In this document: in pieces, positions 9,925 through 13,083 of the stretch
Position numbering within the stretch: the stretch's first letter is position 1
Layout: every line of letters starts with the position of its first letter
DNA from: Gottfriedia acidiceleris
GTDB taxonomy: Bacteria; Bacillota; Bacilli; Bacillales; Bacillaceae_G
Reading direction: 5' to 3'
Assembly: GCF_023115465.1 (NCBI RefSeq)
Contig: NZ_CP096034.1
Coordinates: 4,588,001-4,652,000 of the forward strand
DNA: 64,000 nt
The notes under the pieces: generated by a model
The model's database searches: none
Seen by the model: only the letters and a program-made list of their open reading frames with translations
Told to the model about the DNA's origin: nothing
Position numbers and translations under genes: made by a program

Positions 9925-9969
9925 AAATGGGACCGCTTTATATGGTATTCGGTCCCATTTTTATTTTTT
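9925..9969. terminator. Bidirectional terminator between CBS and the partition genes
   Basis: AAATGGGACCG (9925-9935) pairs perfectly with CGGTCCCATTT (9950-9960). It is followed by TTATTTTTT on the plus strand and preceded by A residues. It serves the two convergent units. Confidence 0.9.
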
Positions 9970-10570
9970 ATTTATTCATTTGTGCTAGAAAATCTCCGAG
10001 TAGACTATCCATATCTTCCTCTTCAATTTCTTCTTTTGCTGCAGAGATTTCGCTTTTGCTTGCAGCTTCCCAATCAAAGTTATCTAAATCATCATCACGG
10101 TCAGCTTTTCTTTCAACATTATCTAATTTCGTTACAACCAGTTCACTAGTACGAATATTTGATTGAACGGGTTCCAATTCTGGCTCTAGCTCATTCATTT
10201 CTTCTTGAAGATATAGAGCTTCTTCAATTGCTAGACTATTACTATTTAGCGATGTAATAAGAGAAGCAGTACGAATTGGGTTAGATAATAGTTGGTACAC
10301 AATACTACCTAATAGTGCCTCAGAATGCTCATGTTTTAACCAATCTCTTTGAGCTTTATCTAGACTTTTCGGTAGTGGAATTGTTATTGTTTGCCTTTGC
10401 TTTGATAATGAGTCATTAACTCCGCTTATTACGTACTCAGCAATCTTACTTGAAAAATTTCGTCTTTCGCTTTGTTTAAGCTGCTGCAAATGTTTCATTA
10501 TTTGATCAGGCGTATCAGAAGGGATACGAAATGTAATAGGTTGTCCCCTCGTCAATTCTTTTTCCTGCAT
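9968..10570 (-). CDS. ParR-like DNA-binding adaptor (probable ribbon-helix-helix)
   Basis: 200 residues. Two stretches look alike: a short strand (ITFRIP near 12-17; ITIPLP near 62-67) followed by two helices, the pattern of ribbon-helix-helix DNA binders. If both are real, one chain carries two such units. After about residue 110 comes an acidic, probably disordered linker. The protein ends in an amphipathic helix, MDSLLGDFLAQM, like the tail by which ParR proteins contact ParM filaments. It starts nine bases after the actin-like gene, with AAGGTG before the ATG, in one operon with it. I recognise no close named homologue. The role as centromere-binding adaptor is inferred from gene order, fold pattern and the site arrays at 11911-12161. 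Confidence 0.6.
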   Translation of the reverse strand: MQEKELTRGQPITFRIPSDTPDQIMKHLQQLKQSERRNFSSKIAEYVISGVNDSLSKQRQTITIPLPKSLDKAQRDWLKHEHSEALLGSIVYQLLSNPIRTASLITSLNSNSLAIEEALYLQEEMNELEPELEPVQSNIRTSELVVTKLDNVERKADRDDDLDNFDWEAASKSEISAAKEEIEEEDMDSLLGDFLAQMNK

Positions 10571-10579
10571 GGAATCACC

Positions 10580-11791
10580 TTATTTTGCTTTAGACATTTT
10601 TTGTTCTTCTTTTTCAGTGTGTTGTGTTTCTCTTCTAGATTCTCTTACTCTTTTTATTTCATAATCAGCGATTAGCTTATAATAAGCATTCGCCATCATC
10701 CAGATACTTTCCTTCTCATCCTCAAAGAAATCAATATTATAACCATCTAGGTTATTATTAAGTGTTTTAAGATACTCTTTTAAGATTAGCGATCCTCCAC
10801 CAATGAAATAACATATTTCAGTTTGTGAGTTCTTCTGCCAAATATTTCTTAAATGACGATATTGTTTTTTTGCTAATTCTAATAGAATTCGGTCTACAAT
10901 ATCATGAACGCTTGTCCGACTACCCTTAACCATTATATGATTTCGATCACTTTTCTTAGTAATGATCTCTACAACGTCTCTTCGGCTATCAAGTTCAACT
11001 CCATGTCTTGAACGAATCTCTTCACGAATTGCCTCAAGGGACTCCGCAACGCCAAGATTAAAACCTTGAGCCTTATCGTCATCTACTTTTCGATTTCTAA
11101 TGACTGCAATATCAGTTGATAACCCTCCGATGTCTTGAATAAGGATTTTTTTATCTATCAGGTCTTTATTAATTATGTTTAAATGATTGTCCATAACTAA
11201 GTTAATAAAAGCTGCAAATCCTTCGGGATAGACTTTAACTTCTTCAAACTTAATATTAACTTTTAATCCTTGATGTCTTGGTGTTACTAAAAACTCTACT
11301 TGGTGAACTGAGCCTAGTAATCTAGAACGATAACCAACGTCCTTTCCTTCCTTTACTTCTCTAAGCGGAAGACCAGTTCCTAATACGTATGTTGCCTCAA
11401 TTACATTATTAGAGTTCTTTACAATCTGTTTATTATCTTCTCTAGCTGCATCTAACGCTAAAGCTGCAAATAACATAATAAGTGTTTGATCCTCTTCAGA
11501 CTTATTACTCCCAGGATCTAGTTCTGTTGCATTACCGCTTTTAGTTGCTAAATTTCCTACACGATAAACAGTATTATTCTCTTTTAAGGTTGGCGAGTGA
11601 ACGCGAATATGTATTCCATCAACTGGATCTTGGTTGTCTAATTCTTCTATCCCAATGATTGGACGATCTTCTGTATCCCTTGCAATAATATTAGGAATAT
11701 TAATCTCTGATTCCATCTTCCCAAAAATCCCTTTGAGTGAATCGTTTCCTACATCAATAGCAGCTATACGAGCATTTACCACTTTAATCAT
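10580..11791 (-). CDS. ParM/StbA-family actin-like ATPase
   Basis: 403 residues with the actin/Hsp70 nucleotide-binding motifs in order: phosphate-1 DVGNDSLKG (Asp13, Lys20), phosphate-2 DIGGLSTD (220-227) and the adenosine loop FIGGGS (329-334). YVLGTGLPL near 135-143 is typical of plasmid-segregation actins. MreB and FtsA have different signatures. Such proteins polymerise with ATP and push DNA molecules apart. The C terminus is a charged tail of about 30 residues. It is the first gene of a two-gene operon, and upstream of it lies an array of TGTATACA-like sites. No replication gene is nearby, and the flanking genes are ordinary chromosomal ones. Confidence 0.85.
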   Translation of the reverse strand: MIKVVNARIAAIDVGNDSLKGIFGKMESEINIPNIIARDTEDRPIIGIEELDNQDPVDGIHIRVHSPTLKENNTVYRVGNLATKSGNATELDPGSNKSEEDQTLIMLFAALALDAAREDNKQIVKNSNNVIEATYVLGTGLPLREVKEGKDVGYRSRLLGSVHQVEFLVTPRHQGLKVNIKFEEVKVYPEGFAAFINLVMDNHLNIINKDLIDKKILIQDIGGLSTDIAVIRNRKVDDDKAQGFNLGVAESLEAIREEIRSRHGVELDSRRDVVEIITKKSDRNHIMVKGSRTSVHDIVDRILLELAKKQYRHLRNIWQKNSQTEICYFIGGGSLILKEYLKTLNNNLDGYNIDFFEDEKESIWMMANAYYKLIADYEIKRVRESRRETQHTEKEEQKMSKAK

Positions 11792-11910
11792 CCCTTTCGC
11801 TAATAGGTTTACATATTAATAGATAATTCTGATATTAGATTATCTAACTTTAGCCATCCGGTCAATGTCCCATGCTGAACTATTATAAAAATGTAACTGA
11901 ATTGTCATCT

Positions 11911-12022
11911 TGTATACAAAATTGTAAACACATAAAAATTTGTATACTTTTCTGTATACATGTGTACAAAAATGTATACAAATGTTTACAAAAGCGTGTA
12001 CTTGTATACAAAAGTGTATACA
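11911..12022. repeat. Centromere-like site array, proximal block
   Basis: Eight 8-base sites matching TGTATACA, TGTGTACA or close variants start at 11941, 11953, 11961, 11973, 11983, 11995, 12003 and 12015. The spacings are 12, 8, 12, 10, 12, 8 and 12 bases, which is symmetric about the middle. Two more sites lie at 11911 and 11923. The average step is one helical turn, so bound dimers would line up on one face. The block lies 120 bases before the actin-like gene. Confidence 0.8.
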
Positions 12023-12074
12023 TCCCCTTTTTTATTCTAGAATTAAATTCAGAACAACTGACTCCTACCTGTGG

Positions 12075-12080
12075 ATTATA
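12075..12080 (-). promoter_or_regulatory. Candidate -10 element for the actin/adaptor operon
   Basis: TATAAT on the minus strand, at the inner edge of the distal block. The only -35 candidates (ACTTGT 17 bases away, or TTGTAC 15 bases away) are weak and lie within the sites. A promoter placed here would be covered when the arrays are occupied. Confidence 0.35.
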
Positions 12081-12161
12081 AGTTTACGTTTTTGTGTACA
12101 AGTATACTTTATCGTATACAATTGTTTACAAAATGTATTCTTGTGTACAAATATGTGTACA
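12081..12161. repeat. Centromere-like site array, distal block
   Basis: Eight sites related to TGTATACA start at 12081, 12093, 12101, 12113, 12123, 12134, 12142 and 12154. The spacings are 12, 8, 12, 10, 11, 8 and 12, almost the same series as the proximal block 140 bases away. The fifth site is TGTTTACA in both. Sites 1 and 6 are the most degenerate. Confidence 0.75.
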
Positions 12162-12190
12162 ACGCACCTTTGAACGGTTTCCTATAAAAA

Positions 12191-12220
12191 TAAAAAAACA
12201 GGTAGATGGCTTCTACCTGT
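12191..12220 (-). terminator. Terminator downstream of the pga remnant
   Basis: ACAGGTAGA (12198-12206) pairs with TCTACCTGT (12212-12220). Read on the minus strand it runs into seven T residues. It probably ended the former pga operon and now shields the site arrays from its transcription. Confidence 0.75.
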
Positions 12221-12268
12221 CAATATGTGTATAAGTCCACCTTATTAAAATATCCACATGTGGATTAC

Positions 12269-12454
12269 TTATTTTTTATTATGACTAACTAACTCTTGAA
12301 TAGGATTATTTTCAATGATTATTATATATGAATCCTGTAGCTTATTGTAATCCTCTTCAGACATAAGCTTTAAATTTAATAGGTCCTCCTTTGTTGTAAA
12401 TTTTGGGTATGACCTTCTCCGTAATGGTCCAAATCCTTTTAGATTATAAAATTT
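12269..12454 (-). pseudogene. Probable C-terminal remnant of pgaD
   Basis: An open frame of about 61 codons with no start codon except an internal ATG. The translation contains RRRSYPKFTTKEDL and MSEEDYNKLQDSYIIIIE. This looks to me like the cytoplasmic tail of a PgaD-type partner of the PNAG synthase, and it lies exactly where pgaD would follow pgaC. The membrane-spanning N-terminal part is missing. A 10-bp inverted repeat (CTTTTAGATT at 12436-12445 and AATCTAAAAG at 12457-12466) sits at its upstream edge. The family call is tentative; the broken state is clear. Confidence 0.4.
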
Positions 12455-12536: not shown

Positions 12537-13083
12537 TTAAAATAGGATTTTACTATATTTATATATCGCCCGAAAGTCCAATATTAAACGCCAAAACCGC
12601 ATAATTACCTCTTGTCCAACCTGTGCCCAACAAATTCTTTGATTCCAAATTCCTTTTAATGTTTCTTGTACTAACATCCAGCAAAGTGCACGAGGTTCAT
12701 AGCGAATATCCCAAAATCTTTCTTGTAGCTTCCACGATACTGCGATATCTTCTGTAATCATGTCGCAGTTCCATAATCCTACATCTACAAGTGCTTTTTT
12801 CGAAATGCAACTTACTTCGCCTGATACAGTCATAATTTTACCAAGCATTCTTTTGGTTCTTTTTATAGCCCCAATAGATAGAAGAATATTCCACTATCTG
12901 TAATCTACTCAGTAGCATATCACGATTTCGAATTCTTGGATTTCCTGTTACGGCACCGAGTCTTTCCCCACTATGTAGAAAATTTACTTCTTTTCCTTTT
13001 TCTCGGTATCGGAAAAATAGACTGGATCCTGCCACCCAAAATAAAGACATAACCAATGGATACCAAAATACAAATTCCGACAA
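12537..13083 (-). pseudogene. pgaC: Decayed poly-beta-1,6-GlcNAc synthase gene (pgaC/icaA type)
   Basis: The first frame (12838-13083) has an N-terminal membrane segment joined directly to GAVTGNPRIRNR and LQIVEYSS. A second frame (12537-12848) continues with MLGKIMTVSGE, DMITEDIAVSWKLQ and YEPRALCWMLVQETLKG. These are family 2 glycosyltransferase motifs of PgaC/IcaA. Three lesions are visible: the catalytic region between the membrane segment and GAVTGNP is deleted; one extra base near 12870 (SSIYW instead of SSIIG) shifts the frame; and the C-terminal membrane part is lost. The product would have polymerised the biofilm polysaccharide PNAG. It cannot be active. Confidence 0.85.

Follow-up and report, generated by a model that had tools for sequence, protein, structure and literature searches.

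A chromosomal, origin-linked ParM-type cassette with a candidate centromere-like site array, carried by about half of the sampled genomes of a bacterial order

Results

Organization of the cassette

The window, meaning the whole 64,000-nucleotide stretch of DNA analyzed here, covers bases 4,588,001-4,652,000 of genome G000, whose nearest named relatives are Gottfriedia and unclassified Bacillus. This genome is a single contig of 4,690,333 bp with a DnaA match at base 4, and the locus in the window is therefore chromosomal, with the cassette about 92 kb left of dnaA. A ParM-like ATPase gene (the actin gene), an adaptor gene and a site array on a chromosome had been proposed earlier from the sequence alone (the sequence-only reading), and all three were found where that reading had placed them (Table 1). 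An ordinary plasmid partition locus was rejected for this 4.69-Mb single contig, which carries DnaA and ParB-family genes. A defence system was also rejected, since PADLOC gave no match for the cassette.

Table 1. Features of the cassette, in window positions
Feature	Position	Strand	Remarks
Adaptor (ParR-like) gene	9968..10570	-	200 aa; 9 bp downstream of the actin gene
ParM/Alp7A-type actin-like ATPase gene	10580..11791	-	ORF opens at ATG 11791; likely start GTG 11782
Promoter-like element of the operon, TTGACC-N17-TAATCT	11837..11865	-	Conserved among loci
Promoter-proximal pair of sites	11911..11930	.	Starts 11911, 11923; 12 bp apart
Eight-site block A	11941..12022	.	Gaps 12-8-12-10-12-8-12; starts 11941, 11953, 11961, 11973, 11983, 11995, 12003, 12015
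Eight-site block B	12081..12161	.	Gaps 12-8-12-10-11-8-12; starts 12081, 12093, 12101, 12113, 12123, 12134, 12142, 12154; duplicate found in part of the genus
Terminator-like hairpin	12197..12221	-	Above the array; weak, 1 found vs 0.8 expected by chance

The ATPase belongs to the actin-fold ParM/Alp class, and its structure was modeled with a pLDDT of 63. It scored far under the cut-offs of both the plasmid ParM equivalog NCBIfam NF010498 (35.5 bits, cut-off 417) and the FcmB family NF052678 (26.6 bits, cut-off 300). As in ParMRC systems, the gene shares an operon with an adaptor gene and has repeated centromere-like sites beside it; with ParM and adaptor genes on a chromosome, the pair is also a cParMR in the broad sense. 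In several relatives a stop stands directly behind the codon corresponding to ATG 11791, and the GTG three codons on is common to them, so that translation probably begins at this GTG and the ATG is not used.

The adaptor gene was found directly 3' of the actin gene in 30 of 30 loci and then in 75 of 75, a set without L079, L081, L082, L086, L090 and L109, which a motif filter had missed. A second count, in which L102, L106, L107, L121, L122 and L125 were without an adaptor reference, gave, when combined with the first, an adaptor in each of the 80 named loci. Alignment and model together indicate a strand-helix-helix N-terminus, a second conserved module, a disordered linker and a conserved C-terminal helix. 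The protein had no family match and no PDB match, its model was poor and three further matches were weak; the adaptor may have a ribbon-helix-helix fold.

Between the array and queC, at 12537-13083, the window contains two ORFs on the minus strand. One of them matches part of a glycosyltransferase family and the other has no match; together they look like a broken glycosyltransferase gene.

The site array and its spacing code

Upstream of the actin gene lie 18 TGTATACA-like sites, including the two eight-site blocks. GTNNAC cores number 17 in the 260 bp from 11901, whereas the median for the window is 1 and the highest count outside 11600-12300 is 6; the site at 12134 in block B is degenerate and has no such core. 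Both gap series given by the sequence-only reading were confirmed, and the pair at 11911/11923 is an addition to its list of sites. The array profile R1 matched block A with an E value of 5e-20 (block A itself being in the model) and block B with 2.5e-18 (block B being outside the model, with relatives' copies inside).

That reading had also described twin arrays. Both blocks are present in the window, but the duplication is a local elaboration and not a general rule: it occurs in part of the window's genus and sporadically elsewhere, and in most relatives a single eight-site block is accompanied by a partial one, about 24 bp nearer the gene. Six of the 80 named loci carry extra blocks 0.9-1.5 kb upstream, and G027 carries such blocks downstream of the adaptor gene.

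The 12-8 alternation was seen in the upstream site clusters of all 30 first loci, with some single sites below threshold. Across the 80 named loci, the best eight-site block within 520 bp upstream scored at least 29.5 (median 74), whereas 2,658 other stretches of the same loci had a median score of -50, with the 99th percentile at -29; the high scores among these came from real second blocks. The site matrix was trained on L001-L030, and some of those species are also among the 80. The exact series 12-8-12-10-12-8-12 was found in 41 of the 80 loci and the remaining 39 came within one base per gap, which is the most deviation that the test allowed (24 combinations, each gap at most 1 base off the consensus, with the background equally free). 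In an alignment of 49 blocks the dyads are conserved and the spacers are not.

Among the 105 possible orders of these gaps the real order fitted best, and none of them gave a better 10.5-bp phasing. The eight consensus dyads all deviate by no more than 1.5 bp from one face of the helix. Equally good phasing was seen in about 5% of random gap sets, and phasing alone is therefore no proof. Selection on the spacing, which the sequence-only reading had suspected, is supported by the gap fit in 80 of 80 named loci and by an array in every carrier of the gene: relatives that keep the genes and have lost the pattern, named in advance as the case that would speak against it, were searched for, and 201 of 201 gene carriers have the array.

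A conserved promoter element outside the array

The element TTGACN-N17-TAATCT was found between array and gene, with at least 9 of its 11 positions matching in 64 of 80 loci, versus 15 of 240 shuffled controls. In the window, 45 bp lie between the end of the last site and the first hexamer of the element. The arrays thus do not flank the promoter, as had been supposed, because the conserved element sits between array and gene. An automated promoter scan was silent on the element because its rule wants another second hexamer; it resembles the standard vegetative promoter type. In a relative on a B. subtilis plasmid, read by eye, the second site pair overlaps the promoter, whereas the chromosomal array seems, from the sequence comparison, to have come off it.

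Distribution and ancestry

The actin gene was found in 201 of 397 sampled genomes of the order, representing 55 of 135 genera (ATPase query, E <= 1e-100), with identities of at least 75% among the matches listed. About half of the sampled order is without the system, including G004 of the window's own genus. The array profile hit the same 201 genomes and none of the other 196, in a run that scored at most 11 candidates per genome, so that weak or odd arrays may escape. In a sample of 398 genomes of the phylum, four matched at E <= 1e-40, all of them in the same order. Thirty-two plasmid records matched the ATPase, the best at 44.2% identity, and a search of phage records gave no match.

An alignment of 36 actin rows has a mean column identity of 83%. 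A tree built from the window, 53 of the 80 named loci and five outgroups places the chromosomal proteins in a single long-stemmed clade (99/98), within which most genera cohere. Among the exceptions are Ammoniphilus, placed beside Ectobacillus, Ureibacillus, placed beside Neobacillus, and scattered Sporosarcina names.

The array is near single copy. At E <= 0.001, all but three of the array matches in 34 genomes lay beside the cassette (at most 135 candidates scored per genome; weak or odd arrays may escape). Of the three others, one, on contig C2 of G196, had an E value of 6.5e-5 and two had 9e-4; sites scattered over the chromosome were accordingly rejected.

A fixed place left of the origin

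In all 34 low-contig genomes, from 16 genera, the actin gene is found to the left of dnaA, 36 to 236 kb away (median 91 kb; 0.6 to 6.3% of the chromosome), and is encoded on the other strand. These genomes are carriers with at most six contigs and the match on contig C1, about ten other low-contig carriers having been left out, and 19 of them are single contigs. A second sample took 80 further carriers, each with up to about 70 contigs, from 116 that were considered. In 25 of these the actin gene and dnaA fall on separate contigs, which is uninformative; the arrangement was the same in all 55 with both on one contig, at 39 to 313 kb, giving an overall range of 36-313 kb.

As a control, the window neighbor queC was found in 27 of the 34 genomes, and in none of 25 genomes outside the window's genus did it lie within 250 kb of dnaA. 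An explanation of the origin linkage by local synteny was rejected on this basis. Around the cassette, only the actin and adaptor genes are common to all 75 loci; the next cluster, an ABC-type ATPase, reaches 31 of 75. The fixed position relative to the origin, together with the changing neighbors, indicates that the place relative to the origin has been kept while local gene order was lost.

Origin linkage without common neighbors also led us to reject a recent mobile element or prophage. Of the cargoes considered by the sequence-only reading, an integrated element loses ground here: recent integration is unlikely given the fixed origin place, the lack of a further gene common to over 31 of 75 loci and the grouping of most genera into clades.

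At least two ParB-family matches lie near dnaA in 34 of 34 genomes, with two strong ones within about 20 kb. The cassette is therefore not the sole segregation system, and a replacement of ParABS was rejected.

Gas-vesicle-type genes occur near the cassette in up to 17 of 75 loci (one representative piece tested); in L064 and other Rossellomorea-type loci they lie about 3.5-9 kb downstream of the actin gene.

Discussion

Relation to known systems

Chromosome-encoded ParMs (cParM) are already known in Desulfitobacterium and C. botulinum, and the same study also covers Bacillus cParM cassettes (Ali et al. 2025, PMC12270681). Dh-cParM1 and the window ATPase match with a phmmer E value of only 0.47. 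In its accessible passages, the cParM work names a three-palindrome parC for C. botulinum, reports no conserved parC for Dh-cParM and mentions no origin linkage (PMC12270681). Searches of the open-licence literature listed no further study of chromosomal ParM in this group, and origin linkage or this array was mentioned in none of the listings. Chromosomal ParMs as such are thus known, and the origin linkage and the conserved array appear to be new.

The Alp7A-type and other Alp/ParM proteins of Bacillus plasmids are at most 44.2% identical to the window ATPase, and their adaptors are shorter with another C-terminus. Compared with the ParMRC systems of plasmids R1 and pSK41, the window family is chromosomal and conserved through the order, and its array lies off the promoter and has a 42-bp four-site period. 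It resembles ParABS (Soj-Spo0J) in being a partition-type locus near the origin, although ParABS uses another class of ATPase and other sites; with ParB-family genes in every genome of the 34 tested, the cassette is an addition to that system.

A domesticated partition system acting on the origin region

We favor the reading, with a probability of roughly 0.6, that the cassette is a domesticated and mainly vertically inherited chromosomal ParMRC, with one origin-linked centromere-like site, that moves or anchors the origin region beside ParABS. The adaptor would bind the GTNNAC dyads, and the conserved gaps would hold the eight dyads of a block on about one face of the helix, giving a row or ring of adaptors per block. 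Such a row or ring could present the conserved C-terminal helices to the ends of the actin-like filaments; in known ParMRC systems adaptor tails hold filament ends, which is the basis for this step. Growth or shrinkage of the filament may then act alongside ParABS to push, pull or anchor the origin region. The array would act in cis as one centromere-like site. As each chromosome has essentially one such site, at 36-313 kb to the left of dnaA, filament action would fall on the origin region. Movement of chromosomal DNA is thus the best of the options that the sequence-only reading had offered, and it is one that we infer.

A broader statement has, in our estimate, even odds: that about half of the sampled species of the order possess an actin-driven machine for chromosome segregation or anchoring beside ParABS, with one point-centromere-like site fixed left of the origin, and that theirs would be the first known case of a bacterial chromosome being moved by a ParM-type filament that acts through a dedicated centromere.

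The family is large and conserved, and because it combines a defined candidate centromere with a fixed origin place, the question of chromosome movement can be put to a direct test in culturable Bacillaceae. How the adaptor would be seated on DNA is predicted quantitatively by the spacing code. The cassette represents a case of plasmid machinery adopted by the chromosome across much of an order, and it suggests an actin-based machine, so far unstudied, for moving or anchoring bacterial chromosomes.

Alternative roles

A role away from DNA is suggested by FcmBC of filamentous cyanobacteria, likewise a plasmid-type actin and adaptor adopted by chromosomes; according to the accessible passages of PMC12645912, this pair of ParM ancestry is required for rod shape and its mutants show no obvious nucleoid change. 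By analogy, the window pair could organize cell shape or the envelope while the array only regulates the operon, and the ATPase does have a weak profile similarity to FcmB, at the score far under cut-off given above. Such a role leaves both the fixed origin place and the presence of the array in every carrier unexplained. A plain operator, moreover, does not require eight to eighteen phased sites, or blocks that stand 1 kb off or downstream of the adaptor gene; together with the position of the promoter element outside the array, this argues against an array that serves regulation alone. The array as a plain operator is disfavored, and we regard this alternative as unlikely.

Slightly less probable is a role in mobile DNA, with the cassette either partitioning resident plasmids in trans or competing against incoming ones whose sites are similar. 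Sites of this kind are also used by plasmid relatives (4 of 32 records examined), related sites without an actin gene occur on a small plasmid-like contig of G196, and two IMG/VR contigs carry a close actin and a short array. A role in trans, however, gives no reason for an array in cis in every carrier, nor for the origin linkage, and the single-contig state of 19 of the 34 genomes weakens the proposal of the sequence-only reading that the cassette serves a plasmid in trans.

The G196 contig (C2, 10,968 bp) contains several TGTATACA-like sites, mostly 12 bp apart (L152:7937-8016), together with genes for a ParA-type ATPase and a MobA/MobL relaxase. On the two IMG/VR contigs, which come from one metagenome, the actin (L157:9992-11134 and L156:4549-5691) is 77% identical to the chromosomal family and has the short array in front; the family is therefore not wholly chromosomal. 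No adaptor gene lies beside these two actin genes, which are near an AAA_10 (conjugation-type) ATPase and beta-helix proteins, and the contigs are perhaps a mobile element borrowing the host adaptor.

Least probable of the three is a stage-specific anchor, with the array tying the left origin flank to the pole in spore formation and not serving growth segregation: polar trapping in sporulating B. subtilis makes use of DNA to the left of the origin and coexistence with ParB-family genes would suit a helper role, but the promoter element presumably belongs to the vegetative type and the RacA-like family is distributed independently of the cassette (98, 103, 82 and 114 genomes; Fisher p 0.19). 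The latter family was followed with NF009646, which we take to be the RacA model and which matched 180 of 397 genomes, none over its cut-off; as it shows no association with the cassette, an exchange with RacA was rejected.

A second ParM-like gene is present in the chromosome of the window genome (G000:C1:2349366-2350457; L147:7358-8509). It is 36% identical, is accompanied by a short adaptor gene, and stands almost opposite the origin, with a resolvase and an integrase nearby.
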